Part shown: piece after piece, positions 31,293 through 51,133 of the stretch
Position numbering within the stretch: the stretch's first letter is position 1
Layout: each line of letters begins with the position of its first letter
Assembly (NCBI GenBank): GCA_018268465.1
Contig: JAFDWN010000005.1
Span: forward strand, 186,001-250,000
DNA length: 64,000 nt
Source of the DNA: Actinomycetota bacterium
GTDB lineage: Bacteria > Actinomycetota > Actinomycetes > Mycobacteriales > Mycobacteriaceae
Reading direction: 5' to 3'
Notes under the pieces: model-generated
Told to the model about the DNA's origin: nothing
What the model saw: the letters and a program-made list of their open reading frames with translations, nothing else
The model's database searches: none
Made by a program: the position numbers and the translations under genes

Positions 31293-34200
31293 TCATTCCC
31301 AGATCAGCAGGTTCGGCAGCGAACCCTCGAGATCGCGCAGGCAGGTATATCCCACACCTGCGATCCCGCGGAACAATCCGACGTTGAACCGCCGCGTGCC
31401 CGCGTTCCAGCGGAAATCGCCGGACAGCTCGCCGTGGCTCAGAACCGCCTGCAGCCGCCTGTGGGCGGTGCCGTCCGGCCGGCCCGTCCGCGCGGCCGCC
31501 TCGCGCCACAGTTCGACACTGCCCAGGCTGCCGCAGCACAGCGTGTCGACGGCCCCGGGCCACCCGTGATCGGCTGCGGCCAGTGCGCCGTCGACATCTC
31601 GGGCGATGTCGTCGGACCATGCGGCACCGCGGCGGACCATTCCCAACCGGGCCAGTCCGACGCCCACCGCGCCCCGGCACCACTGCGCGCGGGCGGGGTT
31701 GTGTTCGTCGCCCTGGATCTCGGGCCCGCGCCCGAATTCCAGACATTCGGTCGCCGCCGCGGCGAAGTCGGCACGCCCGGTCGCCGATGCCAGCGCCGAC
31801 AGCGCGTAGGCGAATCCGGCGGCACCGTGCGACATTCCGTTCAGGGCCGCGCCGTGGGGTCCGTATCCGCGCCAGCTGCGCCTGCCGGGCGCACCGGCAC
31901 GCTCGACGCCGAGCAGATGCTCACCACACCGCACGGCGGCATCCAGGTGCTCCTGGCGCGCGGTGTCACGGTGTAGCCGCAGCAGGCACAGGATCGCCCC
32001 TGCGCTTCCGCCGATGACGTCCAGGCGGCGGTCGGAGGCGGCGAGCCCGCCGGTCATCAGCGCAGCGGCACGGTCGGCGTCGGCACGCAGTTCCTCGTCG
32101 CCCAACAGATCCGACATCACCGTGAGCGCATAGACCAGCGATCCCAGCCCCACGGCACCGCCGAGCCCGAGCACCCGCGCCAGGTGGGGTGCGTTGGCGC
32201 TGCGCAGTTGCGCCCGCAGATGAGCGACCGCGGCACGGGCGAGGTCCGATGATTCCCCTGCCTGCCTGACCCGGGCATGCGCGGCCAGGAACACGGCGAT
32301 GCCCGACGTGCCGTTGTACAGGTCGTGACCGAGGACGGCCGGCTGCGCGACGTCGGAGTCGCCCACCCATCCGGTGCCGATCCACGCCGCGGCACCGCCC
32401 GCGCGGATCGCGATGCGGCACAGCTCGGCCGCGACGGCATCGGCGGCCTGACAGACGTCGGAGACGTTTTCGACCGCGGGCGAACCCGCGATGTACTCGG
32501 GTCGTGCGGTGCCCGGGCGCGCCACCGCGGCATCCCCGCCGCCCGCAACGGTCTGCCCGATCAACTCGGCCTGCCAGGCGATCTCGTGGGCGTCGAGACC
32601 ACGCAGCCGCGCGCGTGCACGTTGCAGACCGGGCGTCATCCCCGTCGCGACCAGCGGGCCGTGCTCGTCGCCGAGATCACAGCCGTCGCTGAGCATCTCG
32701 AAGCGGGGCACATCGAGGCGCAGCAGCGCCGTACGTTCGGCACGCTGCAGCGCCCACAGCGGCTCCTCGGTCTCCCAATTCGCCAGCCGGGCGACAAAAT
32801 CCGCCTGCGCCGACCAGATCGCTCCGTCGTCCATGGTGGTGTGGTCGGTCAGCCGTCGCAGCAGCAGCCCGTAGAACCGCGTGGGCCGCAGCACCCTACG
32901 CACCGGAACACCGGCGAAACCGGCGGTCAGTTCGTCGGGGTCCCGCGCGGCAAGGTATTTCGCGTAGTCGCGATAGCCCCGCAGGAAATCGTCGACGTGA
33001 TCGGCCAGGCGGGCGTACTCGCCGGCGACGTGCGGCAGGTTGGGTGTCGCCGCACCCGCCGCACGTGCGCGCACCGGCCGCATCGCATCGGAGTTGACCG
33101 CCTGCCACGTCAGGATTTCCGCACCCGCCCAGCCGGAAGCCACGCCGCCGACCGGGTATACCTGATCGTCGGGCGCGCGGGCGTACCCGGGCAGCAGCCC
33201 GACGGCCAGGACCGAGTCGGCCACCCGTGCCCGCGCGCGCTCGTCGGCCGCCGACGCCGGATGGGAGAGGTCGGCGTCGGGTGCGGCCTGCAGCAGCGTT
33301 TCCAGGTCGATCGGCACCGGGTGGTCACCGGCGGCGACGAGATTCTCCTGGTGGATGTCGGCCGCGGCGAATCCGTGCAGCAGCGCCAGCAGGGCACCGG
33401 CCCGGACGAAGAACCGCCGGACCCCGGAGGTGTCACATCCGGTGTGCTCGACGAATTCGCTCCAGCCGTAACCGTTTCGGGCCAACGTCCGCACCGCGCG
33501 CAACCGGACCGGGGCGTCGCGGTTGAGCCGTTCGACCATGGCCTGCCACGCAGTGTCGGCGCGCAGGTCTCTCGGCTTGTACATCACCCTGGCACCGCAG
33601 CCGAACTGCACGCACAGCACCGACCGTCCACCGTGATGCGGATCGGACAGCGCGCCGGCGATTCCCCTCACCCGGTCCGTGCCGGATATGCCCAGCAGGC
33701 GGGCCAATGCGTCTCGGTCGGCGTCCAGTCGGTGCAGGAATTCGCCTGCGGCGTCGACCCATTGGCGGGTCACGGTCGCCACCAGCCGGAGCATGACCGG
33801 ATTATCGCCCAATAACTGTTGCAGCCCTTGACTTCTCATGGTTTCGATGAACCGGCGATAGTCCGGCTGGCCGGTGGCGAACTGCAGGTACAGAGCGGGT
33901 GCGAGAACACCGGAGATCCTGCGGGTCAACAACTCCCGGAGGTCGACGCGTGCCGCGGCGTCCACGCTGCCGGTGCGGGACCGCCCGACGGTGTTGTGCA
34001 GCCGCCGCTCGGCCTCGTCGACGAGGGGGTGGATGAGGTCGTCGAACGGGTACCGCGCCGCGGACGTCGGGGTCTCCGTGATCCGCTGCGCGCACATCGT
34101 CTGCCGTACCCAGGCCGCGTCGTCCACCCAGGCCGGAGGGTCCGCGCCGGGCCGCAGGCGCGCGCCGCCGAACCTGGCCAACACCTGCCCGGCGTCGAGC

Positions 34201-34382
34201 CCGTCACGGCGCAGGCGCCTGGCGAACAGCGACCAGTCCCCGGCGGTGCTCGACGCGCACCATGCGGTGAGTCGTGCGACCGCAGCCCTTTCGGGATCCG
34301 GGTCGCCGGACGGCTCGAACGCGTCCGACAGCAACTCGTCGATACCGGCGGCGCCGGTCACATCGACGGCCCCGTCCGTCAC
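31293..34382 (-). CDS. lanM: Class II lanthipeptide synthetase LanM, CCG type
   Basis: This 1,029-residue bifunctional enzyme would phosphorylate and eliminate Ser/Thr in a precursor peptide and then cyclise Cys onto the dehydro residues. The DUF4135 dehydratase half shows YKPRDL (about 268-273), DIHQENLV (342-349) and PIDLET (357-362). The LanC-like half shows QWCRGAVGVG (Cys ~902) and DTLCCGSLG (Cys ~949-950). A CCG motif means three Cys zinc ligands, as in the substrate-tolerant ProcM group, instead of the usual CHG. The start is GTG 34382, 7 bp after the candidate precursor stop. No LanT protease-transporter, immunity or regulator gene is adjacent. It ends 6 bp from convergent sigG. Confidence 0.93.
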   Translation of the reverse strand: MTDGAVDVTGAAGIDELLSDAFEPSGDPDPERAAVARLTAWCASSTAGDWSLFARRLRRDGLDAGQVLARFGGARLRPGADPPAWVDDAAWVRQTMCAQRITETPTSAARYPFDDLIHPLVDEAERRLHNTVGRSRTGSVDAAARVDLRELLTRRISGVLAPALYLQFATGQPDYRRFIETMRSQGLQQLLGDNPVMLRLVATVTRQWVDAAGEFLHRLDADRDALARLLGISGTDRVRGIAGALSDPHHGGRSVLCVQFGCGARVMYKPRDLRADTAWQAMVERLNRDAPVRLRAVRTLARNGYGWSEFVEHTGCDTSGVRRFFVRAGALLALLHGFAAADIHQENLVAAGDHPVPIDLETLLQAAPDADLSHPASAADERARARVADSVLAVGLLPGYARAPDDQVYPVGGVASGWAGAEILTWQAVNSDAMRPVRARAAGAATPNLPHVAGEYARLADHVDDFLRGYRDYAKYLAARDPDELTAGFAGVPVRRVLRPTRFYGLLLRRLTDHTTMDDGAIWSAQADFVARLANWETEEPLWALQRAERTALLRLDVPRFEMLSDGCDLGDEHGPLVATGMTPGLQRARARLRGLDAHEIAWQAELIGQTVAGGGDAAVARPGTARPEYIAGSPAVENVSDVCQAADAVAAELCRIAIRAGGAAAWIGTGWVGDSDVAQPAVLGHDLYNGTSGIAVFLAAHARVRQAGESSDLARAAVAHLRAQLRSANAPHLARVLGLGGAVGLGSLVYALTVMSDLLGDEELRADADRAAALMTGGLAASDRRLDVIGGSAGAILCLLRLHRDTARQEHLDAAVRCGEHLLGVERAGAPGRRSWRGYGPHGAALNGMSHGAAGFAYALSALASATGRADFAAAATECLEFGRGPEIQGDEHNPARAQWCRGAVGVGLARLGMVRRGAAWSDDIARDVDGALAAADHGWPGAVDTLCCGSLGSVELWREAAARTGRPDGTAHRRLQAVLSHGELSGDFRWNAGTRRFNVGLFRGIAGVGYTCLRDLEGSLPNLLIWE

Positions 34383-34389
34383 GTCCGGA

Positions 34390-34518
34390 TCAGCTGCAGC
34401 ACTTGTCGTAGTCGGAGGTCTGATACGTGTACGACAGGGCCGATTGCTCGGCGGCGGCTTCGAGTTCTTCGTCGGTGACGTCGATCTGAAGGACGTCCCC
34501 GTAGGTCGGGGTGGTCAT
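34390..34518 (-). CDS. Candidate class II lanthipeptide precursor (42 aa)
   Basis: The ORF starts at ATG 34518 with GAGGA about 8 bases upstream and ends 7 bp before lanM. The N-terminal part is acidic and helical (GDVLQIDVTDEELEAAAEQ), resembling class II leaders with an EELEAAA recognition segment. The C-terminal part, SALSYTYQTSDYDKCCS, holds two adjacent Cys and several Ser/Thr acceptors, enough for one or two (methyl)lanthionine rings. No Gly-Gly cleavage site is present; cleavage after an Ala would need a different protease. On the minus strand, GATAAT (plus positions 34604-34609) could be a -10 element. The annotation rests on position, size and composition. Confidence 0.8.
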   Translation of the reverse strand: MTTPTYGDVLQIDVTDEELEAAAEQSALSYTYQTSDYDKCCS

Positions 34519-34667: not shown

Positions 34668-35624
34668 TCAGGTCGCCCGCAGCGCTGCCCAGTTCTCGTT
34701 CAGGGTCGCGGCCGACGCCTGAAGCCCCAGTAGTTCGGACACCGACAGCGGGATCTCCAGCACCTGGCCCGCCCCGGCGGCGGAGACCACCGTCGGAAGG
34801 GACAGCGACACGTCGCTGATCTGGTATGCCCCGCGCTGGACGGTGGACACCGGCAGCACACGGTGCTGGTCGCCGAGGACGGCTTCGATGATGCGGGCCG
34901 TGGACAGGCCGATCGCGAGGTTGGTGGCGCCCTTGCCGGCGATGATCTCGTAGGCCGCGTTGACGACGTCGGCCGAGATCTCGCTGCGCACCTGTTCGCC
35001 GAACACCTGGCTGCCGTCGATCCGGAACTCGTCGGCGGGGACGCCGCCGATCGACACACTCGACCACAGCGAGATCTCCGAATCGCCGTGCTCACCCACG
35101 ATGAAGCCGTGCACGTTGCCCACCGCGAGGTCGGCGCGCTGGGCGATCAGGTAGCGAAACCGGCTGGAGTCCAACACCGTTCCGGAGCCGAAGATGTGCC
35201 CGGGCGGCGCGTCGACCGATTGGGCGGCGGCATAGGTCACGATGTCGACGGGGTTGGTGACGAAGATGACGACCGCCGAGGGCGACTGTTCCAGAAGCTG
35301 GGGTGTCAGCGCCTGGGCCATCGCGACATTGGTGGCGGCCAGCTCCAGACGGCTCTGGCCGGGGTCCTGCTTGGCTCCTGCGGTCACGATCACGATCGCC
35401 GACCCCGCGGTGACGCCGATGTCGTCGGACCCGCTGACCGGACAGTGCGGCACGAACTGGCTGCCGTGGTTAAGGTCGAGCACCTCGGCGCGCACCTTCT
35501 GTGTGTTGGTGTCGTACAGCGCCAGAGCGCCCGCGGATCCGCGGATCAGGCAGGCGTAGGCGATGGCGGTGCCGACGCTGCCGACGCCGACGATGGACAC
35601 CTTCCCGGTGCGCGATGCGGTCAC
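34668..35624 (-). CDS. ldh: L-lactate dehydrogenase
   Basis: This 318-residue NAD-dependent enzyme starts at GTG 35624 (VTASRTGKVSIVGVG). The Rossmann motif is GVGSVGTAIAYA. Lactate specificity is indicated by Gln in TAGAKQDPGQSRLEL; malate dehydrogenases have Arg there. The active-site His is in VGEHGDSEISLWSS and the substrate Arg is expected in the preceding DSSRFRYLIA loop region. It interconverts pyruvate and L-lactate in the cytosol. It lies 149 bp upstream of the lanthipeptide precursor on the same strand. Read-through is possible, but no lanthipeptide tailoring role is known for this family, so proximity may be chance. Confidence 0.92.
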   Translation of the reverse strand: MTASRTGKVSIVGVGSVGTAIAYACLIRGSAGALALYDTNTQKVRAEVLDLNHGSQFVPHCPVSGSDDIGVTAGSAIVIVTAGAKQDPGQSRLELAATNVAMAQALTPQLLEQSPSAVVIFVTNPVDIVTYAAAQSVDAPPGHIFGSGTVLDSSRFRYLIAQRADLAVGNVHGFIVGEHGDSEISLWSSVSIGGVPADEFRIDGSQVFGEQVRSEISADVVNAAYEIIAGKGATNLAIGLSTARIIEAVLGDQHRVLPVSTVQRGAYQISDVSLSLPTVVSAAGAGQVLEIPLSVSELLGLQASAATLNENWAALRAT

Positions 35625-35668
35625 GCCACCATCATGGGCCGTTCCCCTCCGCGGCGCTGTCCGACGGC

Positions 35669-35725
35669 CGAGATCCGGGTTATGCGACGCGAAGCTCGGC
35701 AAACCGTGCCTGAAGTCTGATCTCG
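35669..35725. repeat. Degenerate copy of the CGAGATC intergenic hairpin
   Basis: CGAGATCCGGGTTATGCGAC at 35669 faces GTGCCTGAAGTCTGATCTCG at 35706-35725. It resembles the ilvD hairpin with many mismatches. It overlaps the 3' end of the DUF559 gene and encodes part of its C-terminus. A single arm, CGAGATCAGGGTTATGACAC, occurs at 36633. Confidence 0.55.
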
Positions 35726-36585
35726 CGGTCGGACCAGCCGGCGGCATTCATCGCGTCGCGAGTCCTGGCGAGGAAAGTCTGCGGCCGATGGCGCAGCATG
35801 TCGCGGCTGACCCGCACGATCCGCCAACCGAGCGCGTCCAGCCGGGCCAGCCGATCGATGTCGCGCGCATGTTGCGCCGGGTCGGTCCAGTGTTGCGCCC
35901 CGTCGTACTCCACCCCGACCAGCCGATCCCGCCAGCCCATGTCGAGCCGGGCGAACGGGTATCCGTGCTCGTCGACGACGATCTGGGTCTGCGGCCGGGG
36001 AAAGCCGGCGGCGATCAGCAGCAGCCGCGTGCGCGTCTCCGGCGGCGATTCGGCGCCACCGTCCATCAGGTCCAGGGCGCGGCGTAACTGCACGATGCCG
36101 CGGGCGCCGCGATGCCGGCGCAGCAGGACGTCGACATCCTCCCGGCGCAGCGCCGTCGCATTGGCCAGGGCGTCCATCCGGGTGACGGCGGCCACCAGAT
36201 CCCCGCGGCGGCCCAGGTCGAAGGCGGTACGGGCCGGGCTGGTCGTCGACATTCCCGAGATCACGCACACCTCGTCGGCGGCAAGCGTGTCGCGGTGGAT
36301 GAGGATGCCGGGTACCGGATCTCCCAGACGGATGAGTTCGGCGGGCAATCCGGGGTCGATCCACCGCGCCCCGTGCAGCGCGGACGCCGACATGCCGGCC
36401 AGGGTGGCAGTGCGGCCGGACCACAGCCACGCCGCCTTCGCCCGCACCGCCGGGGTCAGCGGGACACCGGTCGGCAGGTACACGTTGCGGTAGACGGCGA
36501 CGTTGCCGCTGCGCAGCCGCCGTCGGGTGAATCGGCCGGCGGCGACCGCTTCGGTGCCGAGAAAGGGGTCGCTGGCGTCGTCCAT
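35680..36585 (-). CDS. DUF559/VSR-like endonuclease-fold protein
   Basis: This 301-residue protein has an N-terminal region of the mycobacterial AbiEi-antitoxin-like type (FTRRRLRSGNVAVYRNVYLP; then WSGRTATLAGMSASALHGARW) and a C-terminal DUF559 domain. The latter keeps the PD-(D/E)xK-like core LDMGWRDRLVGVEYDGAQHW, followed by RDIDRLARLDALGWRIVRVS. Many copies of this protein type exist in mycobacterial genomes. Their role is not established; restriction-like or defence activity has been suggested from the fold. It stands alone, and its end is formed by the repeat described at 35669. Confidence 0.85.
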   Translation of the reverse strand: MDDASDPFLGTEAVAAGRFTRRRLRSGNVAVYRNVYLPTGVPLTPAVRAKAAWLWSGRTATLAGMSASALHGARWIDPGLPAELIRLGDPVPGILIHRDTLAADEVCVISGMSTTSPARTAFDLGRRGDLVAAVTRMDALANATALRREDVDVLLRRHRGARGIVQLRRALDLMDGGAESPPETRTRLLLIAAGFPRPQTQIVVDEHGYPFARLDMGWRDRLVGVEYDGAQHWTDPAQHARDIDRLARLDALGWRIVRVSRDMLRHRPQTFLARTRDAMNAAGWSDREIRLQARFAELRVA

Positions 36586-44830: not shown

Positions 44831-44866
44831 GTGACGGCGCGGTGACAGCCTGCGCGTGACGATGAC
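44831..44866 (+). promoter_or_regulatory. 11-bp-period direct repeats before propeller gene 1
   Basis: TGACGGC (44832) and TGACAGC (44843) are 11 bp apart, one helical turn, with a further GTGACGATGA nearby. GTGACGGCGYGGTGACA recurs at 46814 before the second propeller gene. Such phasing is usual for OmpR/PhoP-type regulators. Confidence 0.45.
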
Positions 44867-44918
44867 CCGCGGGGCCGGCAAGGCGCCGGTGCGCCATCAG
44901 TCAGGCGGGAGGTGTCCG

Positions 44919-46799
44919 ATGATCTCCACCCATCTGGTGTGTGGCGGCGCGGGACCTGTCACCGGCGCCGGGCTGGCGCGCGTCGGTGAACTGTTCGACG
45001 TATCGCCCGCCGGTGATCTGCGCTGGTACCGCTACGACGGGACGGGTGAGGCCAGTCCGGACGGGTCGCTCGGTTGGTCGCCCAATTCGGGCAACGCCAT
45101 CGCCACGGGCTGGGACACCCCGAAGTTCCTGTGCGGCGGCGGTGACGGGGTGCTGTTCGCGGTCAAGGCCAACGGTGATCTGATCTGGCACCGTTACATC
45201 GGCGACGGCAGCGCGGGCGCCCCGCCGGGCACCGGGTGGGCGCCCAAGTCGGGTAACCCGATCGGACGCGGCTGGGCCGGCTTCCTCAGCCTGGTATGCA
45301 CCCCGAAATCTTCTCTGGCCGTTACTAACTCGGGCAGTACCCTGTTCGCCGTGCGCACCGACGGGAACCTGCTGTGGTACCGCTACGTCGGTGACGGCAC
45401 CGCCGACCAAACCGGGGGCACCGGCTGGGCGGCCAAGTCCGGCAACCCGATCGGACGCGGCTGGCAGAACTTCAAGATTCTCACGGCGGCCGCCGACGTG
45501 CTGTTCGGCGTCGAGCAGAACGGGGACCTGCGGTGGTACAGCTATCGGGGCGACGGCACGGCCGACGCGACCGGCGGCACCGGCTGGCATCCCAACTCAC
45601 GCAACATCATCGCCCGTGGTTGGCATCGCTTCGAACGGGTGGTGGGCGGACCGGACGACCACGGCGGGGCGGGGATCGCGCTCTACGCCGTCGAGCCGGA
45701 TGGCACGATGTACTGGTACAAGTATCTGGGTCACGGTGAGCCGGACGTCACCGGCACCACCGGGTGGCATCCCCGCTCGGGCACCCGAATCGGACGCGGC
45801 TGGTTCTCCCCCGCGGTCCTCACCGAGTTGCATCGCCTACCACACGACAAACCCGTCAACGCCGTCGCTTTCGCCGGCGACGGATTGTCCGTCGCCACCG
45901 GATCCGACGATCACGCCGCGCGGGTATTCGCTGTCGCCGGCGGGGCCGAGAGGTCCCGCTTGGCTCACGACGGGCCGGTGACCGCTGTCGTCTGGGCGGG
46001 CGCCACACCGCTGGTGGGCAGCGCGAGCGCCGACCGCTCCGTGCGTCTGTTCGATCCGGCCACCGGCGCCGAACGGGCGCGGGTAGACCACGACGGCGCG
46101 GTCCAGATCCTGGTGCCCAGCCCGGATGGGCAGCGATTGGCCAGCGCGGGAGCCGACGGCGTCGTGCGGCTGATAGACGTTCCCTCCGGCGCCGTGGTCC
46201 GCCGCCTGACGCACAACGCACCCGTCACAGCCCTGGCCTTCGGCCCTGGCGGGATGCGTATCGCCACGGCGGCCGACGACGACACCGCCCGGGTGTTCAA
46301 CACGGTGACCGGGGTCGAGTTGCTCACCCTGCCCCACGAGGTCGAGATCCGCGCGATAGCGGTCAGCCCGGACGGCCTTCGGCTGGTCACCGCGACGGCC
46401 GACGGTGCGGTGCGCACCTTCGACACCACCAACGGCGCCCAGGTGCTGTCACTGGCCGGTCTCGCCGCCAACAACGCCGTCGTATTCAGCCCCGACGGCA
46501 GGCGGATCGCCCTGGCCGGCGACGACGGAGTCGCCCGCGTGCTCGACGCGGCCACCGGGACGCGGCTGCACCAGTTCGCCCACGACGGACCGGTGCGCGC
46601 CCTGGCCTTCACACCCGACAACGCGGTGCTGGCGACCGCTAGTTCCGACCGCACCGCCCGGCTGTGGCTGACGGCCGGCGCGGGCCTGTTGTGCAGCTAC
46701 CCCCACGACGGACCCGTCGTGGCCCTCAGCGTGCATCCCGACGGGACCCTGCTGGCCACCGCCGGCACCGACGCCCGCATCTACCGCATTCCCCGCTGA
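44919..46799 (+). CDS. Tachylectin-like lectin fused to a WD40-like propeller
   Basis: This 626-residue protein starts at ATG 44919, six bases after GGGAGG. Residues ~10-300 contain five ~48-residue blades with the tachylectin-2 pattern (LRWYRYDGTGE, GWSPNSGNAI; LLWYRYVGDG, GWAAKSGNPIGRGW and so on). Tachylectin-2 is a five-blade propeller that binds N-acetylglucosamine or N-acetylgalactosamine. Residues ~300-626 form eight ~41-residue WD40-like blades (LAHDGPVTAVVW, ASADRSVRLFD). No signal peptide or membrane segment is visible, so export would need a non-Sec route. It is the first of three propeller genes that share blade sequences. Function is unknown; glycan recognition is inferred from the fold. 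Confidence 0.85.
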   Translation: MISTHLVCGGAGPVTGAGLARVGELFDVSPAGDLRWYRYDGTGEASPDGSLGWSPNSGNAIATGWDTPKFLCGGGDGVLFAVKANGDLIWHRYIGDGSAGAPPGTGWAPKSGNPIGRGWAGFLSLVCTPKSSLAVTNSGSTLFAVRTDGNLLWYRYVGDGTADQTGGTGWAAKSGNPIGRGWQNFKILTAAADVLFGVEQNGDLRWYSYRGDGTADATGGTGWHPNSRNIIARGWHRFERVVGGPDDHGGAGIALYAVEPDGTMYWYKYLGHGEPDVTGTTGWHPRSGTRIGRGWFSPAVLTELHRLPHDKPVNAVAFAGDGLSVATGSDDHAARVFAVAGGAERSRLAHDGPVTAVVWAGATPLVGSASADRSVRLFDPATGAERARVDHDGAVQILVPSPDGQRLASAGADGVVRLIDVPSGAVVRRLTHNAPVTALAFGPGGMRIATAADDDTARVFNTVTGVELLTLPHEVEIRAIAVSPDGLRLVTATADGAVRTFDTTNGAQVLSLAGLAANNAVVFSPDGRRIALAGDDGVARVLDAATGTRLHQFAHDGPVRALAFTPDNAVLATASSDRTARLWLTAGAGLLCSYPHDGPVVALSVHPDGTLLATAGTDARIYRIPR

Positions 46800-46813
46800 C
46801 GGGCGCGGCGCGC

Positions 46814-46848
46814 GTGACGGCGTGGTGACACGCGGGCGGCGATGATGC
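46814..46848 (+). promoter_or_regulatory. 11-bp-period direct repeats before propeller gene 2
   Basis: GTGACGGCGTGGTGACA at 46814 differs by one base from 44831. The gene-free stretch 46800-47036 holds nothing else that I can identify. Propeller gene 3 lacks the element and probably shares this promoter. Confidence 0.45.
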
Positions 46849-47036
46849 CGTTGGCGACCCCAACGCCGGCCTGCAGCGATGTCGGCCGCGGTGCCGATCG
46901 GAGCACGCTATGACAGCCACCACCCCCGTCACCGATGCGTCGTTCGACACGTGGTCCTGCCGAGCGCCATCCCCGTCACCGTATCGACAACCCGCCGACA
47001 TCAGTGGCCGCAGTCGACAAGTCAGGATCATTGGAC

Positions 47037-49061
47037 ATGGCTGAGAACCCGCAACCCGTAGCGACTTTCACCCACGACGAACAGGTTTCGGCGGTGACGT
47101 TCAGCGCCGACGGACGCCGGCTGGCAACGCTGTCCAACAAGACCCTGCGGGTCTTTCCGGTGTCCGGCGGCGGGCAACCCGTGATCGTGCCGACAGACGT
47201 CGAACTCAGCACGGTGGCGTTCGCCCCGACCGGCACGAGCGTCGCGGTCTGCGGGTTCGGCGGATTCAAGTTGTCGGTCATCGTGGTCGATCCGGCCACC
47301 GGTGCGATGCGGTGGCGCAAGACCGAGAAGACTCCGTCGATGAACGTCGGGTTCACCCCCGACGGGACGGCGATCCTGGTCCAGCAGCGGACGTCTGCGC
47401 AGCTGCTCGATGCGGCGTCGGGGACGCCGCGGTGGACATTCGCCGCACAGCAGGGGCAGACGCTGCATCGGGCGGCGTTCAGTCCTGACGGCGCCACGGT
47501 GGCGATCGGAACGGGCATGGATATCCACAGCGGCGAGATCGTGTTGCTCGACGCCACGACCGGCGCGGTGCGCAAGCGGGTCGGCCGGCCCAATGCGGTT
47601 CGCGCAGTGTGTTTCTATTCGGGCACCGGACGATTCGTGGGCTTCGGCACCGATCGTGAAATGGGGATTCTCGACACCACCAGCCAGGCCATGCGGGTCC
47701 TGCCGCACCCCGAGGAGGAGCTGCGCGACGTTTTGAAGATCACGTTCAGTGGTGACGACCGGCTGATCGGGATGATCAGCGAACGGCTCAACGGGATCTT
47801 CTCCTCGGCGCGGGTGCTGGACGCCGATACCCTGGCGGTCATCCGTGACATCCCCGAAGGTTCCTTCTGGGGTCGGCTCGAATTCGGCCGCGATCCACGC
47901 ACGGTGCTCACGGTCGAATCGCTGGGCATCCGGGTGTGGGAGGTGGCCACCGGCGCCGATCTGTTCTGCTACGTCCCGACCGAGGCCGACGGGGGCGCCA
48001 CCGACACGACCCTCGATCCGACCGGTCGGCTGGTTGCGCTGTCCGCCGGTAACAGCGCCCGGGTATTCGAACTCCCGGCGCGCGAACGGCTGCGGCTGGC
48101 ACACGGGGGCGCTGTCCATGCGGTGAGGTTCAGCCCGGACGGGCAGCGGCTGCTCACCGCGAGCGCGGACAAGACGGCCCGGGTGTTCGAACTCGTCACT
48201 GGCACAGAACAATTCCGCCTCACCCAGGACGATGCGGTGGTGGGGGCGTGCTGGATTCCCGCCCGGCCCGCGTTCGCGACCGCCGGCACCGACGGCACCG
48301 CGCGCATCGCGAACAGCGCTACCGGCGCTCAGCGTGCCAGCATCGCCCACCCGGCCGCGGTGACCACGCTGACCGCCAGCGCTGACGGCGCCCGGCTGGC
48401 CACCGCATGCGCCGACGGCACCGCCCGGCTCATCGACGTCGACACCGCCACCGTCCTGCGCCGATTGACACTCGACGACGCGGTGCTGGCCGTGGCGTTC
48501 AATCCGGCCGGCACCCGGCTGGCCGTCGGCAGCGCGGACGGCACCGCCCGCGTGTACAACGTGGCCACCGGCGCCGAGGTTCTCAGCCTGGCCCACTCGG
48601 GAGCCGTATCCGCGGTGGCATTCAACCCGGCGGGCACCCGGCTGGCCACGGCCAGCGCCGACACCACCGCACGGCTCTACGACACCGCCAGCGGAACCGA
48701 ACTGCGCACCCTGTCCCACGACGGCCCCGTGGCCGCGGTCGACTTCACCGGCGACGGGTCCCGGCTGGCGACGGCGAGCGCCGACGGCGCCGCGCGAATC
48801 TTCGACACCACCACCGGCGCCGAACTGCGCAGATTCCCGCACGGCGGGCCCGTCACCGCCGTCACCTTCACCCCCGACGGGTCCCGGCTGGCCACCGCGA
48901 GCGCCGATGCCGCCCGGATCTTCGAGGCCACCACCGGCGCCGAACTGCGCAAACTGCCCCACGACGGCGCGGTCACCGCACTGGCCGTCAACGCCGCCGG
49001 CACCCAACTGGCCACCGCCAGCGCCGATGCCACCGCCCGTCTCTACGACATCCCCACCTAG
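47037..49061 (+). CDS. Double beta-propeller WD40-like protein (propeller gene 2)
   Basis: This 674-residue protein starts at ATG 47037 (MAENPQPVATFTHD). The first ~350 residues form irregular blades (FSADGRRLATLSN, FAPTGTSVAVC, ...WEVATGADLFCYV). The C-terminal ~325 residues form eight regular 41-residue blades ending ARVFELVTGTE, ARLIDVDTATV, ARVYNVATGAE and so on. Each blade has the pattern H-D-(G/A)-V-x-A-V-x-F-x-P-x-G-x-R-L-A-T-A-S-A-D. There is no signal peptide. The blade spacing suggests a scaffold for protein-protein contact. The longer frame upstream of 47037 has no ribosome site and is rejected. A paralogue follows 29 bp downstream. Confidence 0.82.
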   Translation: MAENPQPVATFTHDEQVSAVTFSADGRRLATLSNKTLRVFPVSGGGQPVIVPTDVELSTVAFAPTGTSVAVCGFGGFKLSVIVVDPATGAMRWRKTEKTPSMNVGFTPDGTAILVQQRTSAQLLDAASGTPRWTFAAQQGQTLHRAAFSPDGATVAIGTGMDIHSGEIVLLDATTGAVRKRVGRPNAVRAVCFYSGTGRFVGFGTDREMGILDTTSQAMRVLPHPEEELRDVLKITFSGDDRLIGMISERLNGIFSSARVLDADTLAVIRDIPEGSFWGRLEFGRDPRTVLTVESLGIRVWEVATGADLFCYVPTEADGGATDTTLDPTGRLVALSAGNSARVFELPARERLRLAHGGAVHAVRFSPDGQRLLTASADKTARVFELVTGTEQFRLTQDDAVVGACWIPARPAFATAGTDGTARIANSATGAQRASIAHPAAVTTLTASADGARLATACADGTARLIDVDTATVLRRLTLDDAVLAVAFNPAGTRLAVGSADGTARVYNVATGAEVLSLAHSGAVSAVAFNPAGTRLATASADTTARLYDTASGTELRTLSHDGPVAAVDFTGDGSRLATASADGAARIFDTTTGAELRRFPHGGPVTAVTFTPDGSRLATASADAARIFEATTGAELRKLPHDGAVTALAVNAAGTQLATASADATARLYDIPT

Positions 49062-49090
49062 CCAACACAATCCGCACAGTCAGGATCGAT

Positions 49091-51133
49091 ATGCCCGACA
49101 GTCCCGCGCCGGTCGCGACGTTCCCCAACGACGACCGCGTCTCGTCGATCGCGTTCAGCCACGACGGGCGGCGAGTCGCGGCCATCGCGGACAAGAAAGT
49201 CCGGGTGTACACGCTGAACTCGGCGGTGCCGCCGATCGACATGACCACCGACGTGGAACTGTTCTCCGTGCGGTTCGCCCCGACCGGCGTCACGGCCGCG
49301 GTGTCCGGCTCGGCGCCCGGGCTGCACGGGGTGAAGTCCCTCATCGTGTTCGATCCGGCGAACGGTGTGCAACGCTGGCGATCGGATTCGGCGCAGTTCG
49401 TCGAATTCGATTTCGCCCCGGACGCTCTCGCGATGCTGGCTTACGACGGCAAGTCGGCACGACTGCTGGAGGCCGCCTCGGGAGCGCAACGCTGGACGTT
49501 CGACATGCCCCAGGGCCAGAAGCTGTACCGCACGGCATTCAGCCCCGACGGTACGACGGTGGCGCTCGCCACGGGCATGAGTCGCGACAGCGGGGAGATC
49601 ATCCTGCTCGACGCGGCTTCCGGCGCCGTCCGCAGACGCGTCCCTGTCGCGGGACAGGTTCGGACCGTGGGGTTTTCGCGGACCGGGCGGTTCCTCGCGT
49701 TCGGTCCGGACATCGGTATCGGGGTCCTGGATACCACCACCGGCACCTTCCGTCTGCTGCCGAATCCGACCGTCCCCCATCACGGGAACCTTCGCGAGGT
49801 CTTCGCCAGCACCTTCAGCGACGATGACCGTCTGATCGGTGCCGTCAGCGTCACGATCAACGGGATCAACCCGACGATCACCGTCCTCGATTCGGACACG
49901 CTGGCCACCAGACATGAACTGCCCGACGGCTTCTTCGGGCTGTTCGAGTTCGCCCGCGGTTCCCGGTCGGTGCTGACGGCCGAGACTGGTGCCACCGTAC
50001 GGGTGTGGGACGTGGACTCCGGAGCGGACCTGTTCGCTTTCACGCCTGCCGGTGAGTTCGCCGATATCGGTGACGCCACACTCGACCCCACCGGCCGCCT
50101 GGTCGCGGTGGCGTCCGGGTCCATTGTGTCGATCTTCGAGCTTCCCGTCACCGAGCGGTTGCGGTTGATCCATGGGGGTGCGGTCACCGCGGTGGCCTTC
50201 GATCCCACCGGCACCCGACTGATCACCGGCAGCGCCGACACCACCGCCCGCCTCTTCACCCTGCCCGCCGGCACCGAAAACACCCGCATCACCCACAACG
50301 ACACCGTCACCACCGTCACCTGGATCCCCAACCAATCCTGGTTCGCCACCGCCAGCACCGACAGAACCGCCCGCATCATCGACACCACCACCGGCACCCA
50401 ACGCGCCCGCATCGACCACAACGGCCCCGTCACCACCCTGACCACCAACACCGACGGCACCCGTCTAGCCACCGGCACCACCGACGGCACCGCCCGCATC
50501 ATCGACACCACCACCGGCACCACCCTGCGCCGCCTCACCCTCGACGACGCCGTCCTGACCGTCGCGTTCAACCCCACGACCACCCGCCTGGCCGTCGGCA
50601 GCGCCGACGGCACCGCCCGCATCTACAACACCGCCACCGGCGCCGAAATCCTCAACCTCGCCCACAACGGCGCCGTCAACACCGTCACCTTCTCCCCCGA
50701 CGGCACCCACCTGGCCACCGCCAGCACCGACACCACCGCCCGCATCTACGACACCACCACCGGCACCCTGCTGGCCACCCTGCCCCACAACGGCCCCGTC
50801 ACCGCCCTCACCTACAGCCCCGACGGCACCCGCCTGGCCACCGGCGCCACCGACAACACCGCCCGCATCTACACCACCACTGGCGCGCTGCTACACACCC
50901 TGCCCCACCCCAACCCCGTCACCGCCCTCATCTTCACCCCCGACGCCACCCGCCTGGCCACCGCCAGCACCGACGGCAACGCCCGCATCTACGACACCAC
51001 CACCGCCGCCGAACTCCGCACACTCCCCCACGACGGCCCTCTCACCACCCTCACCATCAACCCCGCCGGCACCCAACTCGCCACCGCCAGCACCGACAAA
51101 ACCGCCCGCCTCTACGACATCCCCGCTGTCTAG
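49091..51133 (+). CDS. Double beta-propeller WD40-like protein (propeller gene 3)
   Basis: This 680-residue paralogue of propeller gene 2 starts at ATG 49091 (MPDSPAPVATFPND), preceded by CAGTCAGGATC as gene 2 is by GTCAGGATC. The N-terminal irregular propeller aligns along its length with that of gene 2. From about residue 370 the blades are highly regular (RLRLIHGGAVTAVAFDPTGT; then TDTTARIYDTTTGTLL). The DNA of this part is strikingly uniform: ACC, GCC, ATC and CTG dominate, giving long ACC-rich runs from 50210 to 51120, unlike the first half. That points to recent blade duplication or homogenisation. It is convergent with the Ada-type gene. Confidence 0.82.
   Translation: MPDSPAPVATFPNDDRVSSIAFSHDGRRVAAIADKKVRVYTLNSAVPPIDMTTDVELFSVRFAPTGVTAAVSGSAPGLHGVKSLIVFDPANGVQRWRSDSAQFVEFDFAPDALAMLAYDGKSARLLEAASGAQRWTFDMPQGQKLYRTAFSPDGTTVALATGMSRDSGEIILLDAASGAVRRRVPVAGQVRTVGFSRTGRFLAFGPDIGIGVLDTTTGTFRLLPNPTVPHHGNLREVFASTFSDDDRLIGAVSVTINGINPTITVLDSDTLATRHELPDGFFGLFEFARGSRSVLTAETGATVRVWDVDSGADLFAFTPAGEFADIGDATLDPTGRLVAVASGSIVSIFELPVTERLRLIHGGAVTAVAFDPTGTRLITGSADTTARLFTLPAGTENTRITHNDTVTTVTWIPNQSWFATASTDRTARIIDTTTGTQRARIDHNGPVTTLTTNTDGTRLATGTTDGTARIIDTTTGTTLRRLTLDDAVLTVAFNPTTTRLAVGSADGTARIYNTATGAEILNLAHNGAVNTVTFSPDGTHLATASTDTTARIYDTTTGTLLATLPHNGPVTALTYSPDGTRLATGATDNTARIYTTTGALLHTLPHPNPVTALIFTPDATRLATASTDGNARIYDTTTAAELRTLPHDGPLTTLTINPAGTQLATASTDKTARLYDIPAV

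Follow-up and report, generated by a model that had tools for sequence, protein, structure and literature searches.

The 64,000-nucleotide stretch analysed here (the window: positions 186,001 to 250,000, forward strand, of contig JAFDWN010000005.1 in the Mycobacteriaceae assembly GCA_018268465.1) carries a class II lanthipeptide synthetase gene, lanM, directly preceded by a 42-codon precursor gene, lanA. In three related species the same pair of genes stands behind a gene resembling an immune receptor, which suggests that the peptide is used inside the cell, perhaps against phage, and is not a secreted antibiotic. The explanation that we prefer, to which we assign a probability of roughly 0.45, is that the pair produces the class II lanthipeptide of an NLR-like conflict module, that this peptide probably acts intracellularly, and that in the present genome the system is divided between two loci and LanM acts in trans. 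Judged by its sequence, the window locus is a class II LanM with a genuine precursor in a mycobacterium, and we regard the pair itself as almost certainly real.

The lanA-lanM pair and its relatives

The lanM gene (31293..34382, minus strand) starts with GTG and encodes a class II lanthipeptide synthetase of 1,029 amino acids, composed of a dehydratase and a LanC-like cyclase with a Cys-Cys-Gly (CCG) zinc motif. A first-pass annotation of the window, made from its letters alone, had described a LanM of this length with all dehydratase and cyclase landmarks, and this description held when the protein was compared with family models. It scored 630.6 bits against the NCBIfam model for type 2 LanM (TIGR03897, cut-off 304) and matched the Pfam domains DUF4135 (E-value 7.9e-95) and LANC_like (2.1e-40), and it is related to the solved structures of LicM2 (6st5, E-value 2.9e-46) and CylM (5dzt, 2.6e-26). 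Every motif that was checked is present: YKPRD, DIHQEN, PIDLE and RPTRFY begin at residues 268, 342, 357 and 499, and the cyclase motifs SHGAAG, WCRGAVG and TLCCG begin at residues 851, 901 and 947. By analogy with other LanM and LanC proteins, we take the dehydratase motifs and the Arg-Pro-Thr segment to have their usual roles in this protein, and Cys902, Cys949 and Cys950 to be the cyclase ligands. The start codon is uncertain by a few codons, in that the open frame spans 1,073 codons and full-length close relatives align from residue 8-11. This LanM accounts for the single DUF4135 match in the window's genome.

The lanA gene (34390..34518, minus strand) starts with ATG and encodes a 42-residue precursor with an acidic leader and a core containing invariant Thr31, Thr34, Cys40 and Cys41. 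As first annotated, a tiny open reading frame (ORF) with a ribosome site stands 7 bp before lanM; its coordinates proved exact, its stop and the lanM start are separated by 7 bp, and a GAGG ends 7 nt 5' of the ATG. When the 42-residue ORF was used as sole query against 396 Mycobacterium genomes, which were also searched for LanM, four further copies were recovered: one on contig 35 of the window's own assembly (E-value 3.1e-11) and one each in the genomes G054 (2.2e-9), G387 (2.1e-6) and G121 (4.1e-6), the last three directly upstream of a LanM gene. A contig scan with exact short patterns gave three relatives, one of them an M. genavense contig. A profile built on the five copies (A2), which matches them by construction and whose statistics are limited by its five rows and by the rarity of the family, yielded no additional strong copy from the 396 genomes; matches in another five genomes, with E-values of 0.003-0.008 and inside frames of 462-831 amino acids, were set aside as chance, as were two weak matches in the window's own genome. 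In a second draw of 397 genomes from 55 genera, centred on G387 and overlapping the first, the precursor was found in G387, G054 and G121 only and in no other genus.

Twelve residues are invariant in all five copies (D16, L19, E20, A22, A23, A27, Y30, T31, Q33, T34, C40 and C41), and the core Ser residues differ among the copies while the two Thr and two Cys are fixed. The proportion of synonymous differences (pS) exceeded that of nonsynonymous differences (pN) in nine of ten precursor pairs, with values of 0.55 and 0.18 for the window and contig-35 copies; in the tenth, window versus G387, the two were about equal (0.32 and 0.30). A chance frame was therefore rejected, the ORF being both conserved and constrained. 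None of the five copies matched a Pfam family at E-values up to 10, nor did the window copy match an NCBIfam family at that threshold, and membership in a curated lantibiotic precursor family was rejected for lack of a match. LanM would bind the acidic leader and dehydrate Ser and Thr residues of the C-terminal core. Since all five copies share two Thr and a C-terminal pair of adjacent Cys, we infer that Thr31 and Thr34 are joined to Cys40 and Cys41 in two overlapping or nested methyllanthionine rings. Dehydration had at first been expected at the C-terminal Ser and Thr residues; the core offers more sites than these, with Thr31 and Thr34 as the predicted invariant ring donors.

LanM relatives occurred in 25 of the 396 genomes, the window's own included. 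A tree was made by a quick method from 55 of the 57 extracted rows (L021 and L026, broken or short, were dropped), and in it the window LanM lies within a 22-row branch of mycobacteria and two Rhizobiales with a support of 100 in the Shimodaira-Hasegawa-like approximate likelihood ratio test (SH-aLRT). The CCG motif was found in 20 of these rows by regular expression and was read by eye in another, L017, while among the 27 order-level rows included in the tree the label was CHG for 23 and CCG for one. The CCG motif of the window LanM, correctly noted at first, had been taken to mark ProcM-like substrate tolerance; because 21 of the branch's 22 rows have it, it is by itself no sign of such tolerance. 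In one LanM of the clade (L007, genome G023) both cyclase zinc motifs are lost, with no WCxG and with SGG in place of CCG, and the frame is open.

The four LanMs accompanied by the precursor with two adjacent Cys (CC-type loci) are early branches of the 22-row clade, as four rows and not as a demonstrated clade of their own. The first-pass annotation had staked its precursor call on conservation of the small ORF beside related LanM genes: it is kept beside three others, while most LanMs of the clade adjoin different small ORFs, several with leaders ending in GG or AG, and some show no precursor candidate by the search motif used. The leader end of the 42-residue precursor resembles that of small ORFs adjoining related LanM genes. 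Very short cores of the TILTPTCK type lie beside LanM near position 11535 of L040 (G164) and near 10986 of L053 (M. genavense); genes for a P450, a leucine carboxyl methyltransferase family protein and a histidine kinase are found near the former, and the M. genavense LanM is split over two frames. Two LanMs of Rhizobiales/Hyphomicrobiales (L056 and L057, on metagenome or draft contigs) are nested in the mycobacterial clade, a placement pointing to transfer between phyla.

The precursor had no match at E-values up to 1 in 72,556 plasmid and 50,697 phage records, and no relative of LanM or of the precursor was confirmed among viral contigs. LanM matches were obtained in 78 plasmid records, with identity below 60% throughout among the matches listed (25 rows). 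With the precursor unmatched in both record sets, a phage- or plasmid-borne system is unsupported.

A TIR-nSTAND1-WD40 gene upstream of lanA

All ORFs of at least 70 amino acids around the fetched loci were compared with one another. This comparison singled out a family of proteins of 1,365-1,475 amino acids whose genes precede the lanA-lanM pair in G054, G387 and G121 and, on contig 35, the orphan precursor gene. In all four loci the large protein gene and lanA share a strand and are separated by a single small ORF, and the order in the three other genomes is TIR-nSTAND1-WD40 gene, small ORF, lanA, lanM. The contig-35 protein is 38-39% identical to its counterparts over nearly the whole length. 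All four large proteins matched nSTAND1 (E-values 2.8e-53 to 9.1e-85) and WD40, and all four matched TIR_2, at 7.4e-22 for G054 and at 2.6e-15, 1.5e-15 and 5.5e-12 for N-terminal pieces of the other three. Each carries a Walker A motif, and a simple hydropathy scan predicts one membrane helix in each; the stretch in which TIR enzymes have their catalytic Glu is visible in the sequences. On these domain matches the large protein resembles sensors of the NLR type.

Because pairwise identity among the LanMs of the CC-type loci is no more than 44-49% and the order is nonetheless kept, the sensor-lan arrangement has persisted through much divergence, and we consider a linkage of lanA-lanM to the TIR-nSTAND module in this lineage very probable. 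On contig 35 and in G387 and G121 the small ORF begins with a hydrophobic, signal-like segment and ends in a Pro-rich tail; the ORF at this place in G054 has a weaker hydrophobic stretch only, from residue 32 of its longest frame. These small ORFs are barely related in sequence (E-value 3e-4 for one pair, and nothing in a second comparison). The TIR-nSTAND half was present in four of the 23 fetched loci, namely the contig-35 locus and the three CC-type loci other than the window's; of the 23, L049 is short at 4.9 kb, L048 begins at the end of a contig, and a single genome contributed both L053 and L058. Another locus, L039 (G006), holds two WD40 proteins without a TIR-nSTAND half.

Other genes surround the sensor in two of these genomes. 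In G121, PP2C phosphatase and protein kinase genes lie just before the sensor gene (L054, 141-2511). In G054 the lan module is part of an island (L047, L130, L125 and L124, covering both contig ends) together with a further two TIR or nSTAND-WD40 genes, a gene for a caspase-like C14 protein and one for a metallo-beta-lactamase fold. The contig ends in question overlap by 10.7 kb at 99.7% identity, such that two of the TIR/STAND matches are one gene; if the overlapping ends are one place, the lan module lies within roughly 27 kb of two more sensor-type genes and the caspase-like gene.

We also surveyed what follows relatives of the sensor in 20 chosen genomes, four of them picked as carriers of the system. 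Proteins matching the contig-35 sensor at E-values up to 1e-40 occurred in nine of the 20. The downstream gene encodes a Patatin in G018 (L123) and G004 (L127) and a SLATT protein on contig 71 of the window's own genome (L122/L117), while the place is taken by the small ORF and lanA on contig 35 and by the small ORF, lanA and lanM in G054, G387 and G121. In a tree of 12 sensor proteins, two of them kinase-fused, the four lan-linked proteins were split from the other eight by one branch with support of 94/96, slightly below the value that the tool marks with a star; the row for G054 is long. As far as gene neighbourhoods tell, a sensor family with exchangeable partners in mycobacteria is the pattern, and by analogy with these partners the lanthipeptide would stand in the effector role. 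The most specific form of this idea, in which the lanthipeptide is the effector or activated product of the TIR-nSTAND1-WD40 module, replacing the phospholipase or SLATT protein, and one LanM serves two precursors in trans, is a tentative proposal that we hold at rather lower confidence than the general explanation given above.

A split system and its competing explanations

Two precursors and one LanM were found in the window's genome. The second lanA (L036, 10533-10673, on contig 35) has the same core and stands behind a TIR-nSTAND1-WD40 gene with no LanM, and no LanM remnant above noise was detected on contig 35. With one LanM and a second precursor on another contig, LanM would have to act in trans. 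We propose that the unit in this lineage is a four-gene module comprising the TIR-nSTAND1-WD40 gene, the small Pro-rich ORF, lanA and lanM. In the window organism, contig 35 has the sensor, the small ORF and one lanA, and the window has the second lanA and the only lanM found, this single LanM presumably serving both precursors. The locus had been described at first as minimal, and no LanT, protease or immunity gene was indeed found among the ORFs adjoining the pair. It is not complete, however: the genome has a second precursor at another place, and the pair forms the tail of a larger module in three other genomes.

The pair is flanked upstream by an L-lactate dehydrogenase gene (ldh, 34668..35747, minus strand) and downstream by a convergent gene for an extracytoplasmic function (ECF)-type sigma factor (SigX5/TIGR02960; 30267..31286, plus strand), both of which lie outside the system. 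The relatives draw comprised 21 genomes, and the flanking ldh was recovered in five of them: that of the window, G003, G004, G009 and G012. In G004, G009 and G012 it lies near a sigma-factor gene with no lan genes there, nearly touching it in G012 and ~0.5-0.6 kb from it in G004 and G009; in G003 no sigma gene was seen within 1.5 kb of ldh. Since the two genes are close neighbours in three relatives without lan genes at that place, the sigma factor gene belongs to the older chromosome, and it was rejected as a regulator of the lan genes. The same observation indicates that the pair was either gained at this site or lost from it elsewhere.

Concerning export, no Peptidase_C39 domain (PF03412) was found in the window's genome at E-values up to 0.01, in a search that was positive in eight of 14 control genomes; among the LanM-bearing genomes, one of 25 has a C39 peptidase. 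The leader was first described as lacking a double-Gly site, and none occurs in any of the five copies: the precursors carry Ala-Glu or Ala-Ala where related leaders have GG, in an alignment made by eye. In the CC-type loci that were read, no neighbour of the pair on the lan strand is a transporter gene. Because no C39-type exporter-protease was found in the genome, we infer intracellular action and favour a peptide that is kept in the cell, either uncleaved or trimmed by a house protease. The large protein would sense intrusion, for example by phage, and the lanthipeptide would be part of the response inside the producer; we rate such an intracellular role in conflict or defence as somewhat short of an even chance.

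Several observations weigh against this explanation. The window contains no TIR-nSTAND gene, the sensor query giving WD40-only matches there, and the sensor linkage in this genome rests on the orphan lanA of another contig. That contig could stem from another strain, since the estimated contamination of the assembly is 5.86%. In composition contig 35 matches the window as well as pieces of the window match one another (0.913 and 0.904), yet the loci of two other genomes are nearly as close (0.905-0.911), and an origin in a close species fits too; panD, whose copy number was counted for the same purpose, is present in two copies that are 63% identical. The system is carried by only four genomes. 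PADLOC assigns the large proteins to no known system, reporting HEAT-ARM_XIII in the WD40 part and weak TIR-type matches. Some of the TIR-nSTAND genes read have other surroundings: G011 and one G054 copy lack an immediate same-strand neighbour, another G054 copy is followed by an ORF of 102 amino acids, and the kinase-fused relatives of G006 and G228 are followed by unrelated genes. The signal-like small ORF fits a role at or beyond the membrane as well as one inside the cell, and in G054 an MFS_3 transporter gene lies convergent to LanM, 101 bp beyond it, such that export is possible; the genes at this place in G387 and G121 have no Pfam match.

Alternatively, the peptide may be a conventional secreted bacteriocin or a signal, in which case a general transporter would export it, a housekeeping protease would trim it, and the TIR-nSTAND gene would be a passenger of the same island. 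A class II LanM and a core with two Cys are what such a peptide would have, and ten fetched loci, none of CC type, hold members of one ABC-protein cluster, the three proteins tested being ABC exporters without a C39 domain. The MFS_3 gene of G054 also fits this reading, and class II lanthipeptide loci are known near defence genes (PMC12715929). We nevertheless think a secreted product unlikely, for three genomes keep the arrangement sensor, small ORF, lanA, lanM at LanM identities of 44-49% and with sensors 38-39% identical to that of contig 35, a set of sensor, small ORF and lanA exists without any LanM, and the CC-type loci read offer neither a transporter on the lan strand nor a double-Gly site.

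The absence of lan genes between ldh and the sigma gene in three relatives, together with a window that lacks the sensor and a contig 35 that lacks a LanM remnant above noise, would equally be expected if the window pair were a piece of the module, transposed or acquired by horizontal transfer, that has lost its sensor and is non-functional or residually functional. This we consider improbable, more so than secretion, for LanM is intact at the landmarks checked and the two lanA copies differ mainly at synonymous sites, both with all invariant residues. Consecutive WD40-repeat ORFs do occur in the window (44856-51133, plus strand), the first with a tachylectin-like domain; they were considered as the missing sensor, but the sensor query aligns only from residue 734 on and the two that were tested show no TIR or nSTAND among their best 25 Pfam families. 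That LanM instead modifies another peptide, the 42-codon ORF not being its precursor, would account for the missing Pfam and NCBIfam precursor-family matches and for the missing double-Gly site. It would leave unexplained five copies that each stand beside a LanM, a sensor or both, with an invariant core and a leader end like those of small ORFs beside related LanMs, and it appears very improbable.

Comparison with known systems and implications

The locus shares with class II lanthipeptides (TIGR03897) a dehydratase and LanC-like cyclase in one protein and a small precursor directly upstream, as well as an E/D-L/M motif near the leader end of the kind described in the accessible part of a lanthipeptide survey (PMC7268733). 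It differs in having no double-Gly site and no C39 peptidase found in the genome, where a double-Gly leader end with a bifunctional LanT is frequent but not universal in the class, and in having a separate precursor on another contig and, in three other genomes, the TIR-nSTAND1-WD40 linkage. The cores of the lacticin 481 group end in Cys-Cys(-Ser) and form two overlapping rings, and their synthetases have a CHG zinc motif. The present core has the same ending, but it matches no precursor family and contains only two Cys, and its synthetase has CCG instead of CHG. The zinc motif of ProcM is CCG, as here; in contrast with the prochlorosins, the leader has no family match (no Nif11-type leader) and two precursors were found rather than dozens; the LanM tree was built without ProcM.

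With TIR/STAND (NLR-like) conflict systems the module shares a protein combining TIR, nSTAND1 and WD40, whose relatives in the genus have Patatin or SLATT next to them, whereas the downstream place is here occupied by a small ORF, a lanthipeptide precursor and its synthetase. A TIR domain, a STAND NTPase and repeats in one protein accompany the lanA-lanM pair in G054, G387 and G121 and the orphan lanA of contig 35, and are absent from the window. Anti-phage class I lanthipeptides of Actinomycetota, termed lanthiphages, are described as intracellular and encoded in defence islands in the parts available of two papers (PMC12360287, PMC12715929), the second of which cites them alongside its class II loci near defence genes. 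The host phylum is the same, but lanthiphages are made by LanB/LanC class I machinery, while the present, putatively anti-phage system has a class II LanM and an NLR-like partner. The synthetase at the window locus is LanM and not LanB/LanC; the rest of the genome was not searched for LanB.

Within the genus, a LanB-type cluster with a double-Gly precursor is reported for M. tusciae in the available portion of one paper (PMC3951391). The survey cited above covers 8,405 precursors, and its main text, as far as available, does not mention "mycobacter", although some of the present peptides may be listed in it (PMC7268733). Among the matches listed in a search of titles and abstracts, no class II mycobacterial lanthipeptide was tied to a TIR-STAND gene and no NLR-like system had a lanthipeptide effector.

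Should the peptide prove to belong to the sensor, a ribosomal, post-translationally cyclised peptide would serve as a weapon of NLR-like systems in bacteria. The idea of anti-phage lanthipeptides would then be widened from class I to class II, and mycobacteria would gain a defined lanthipeptide family with a fixed core of two Thr and two Cys.

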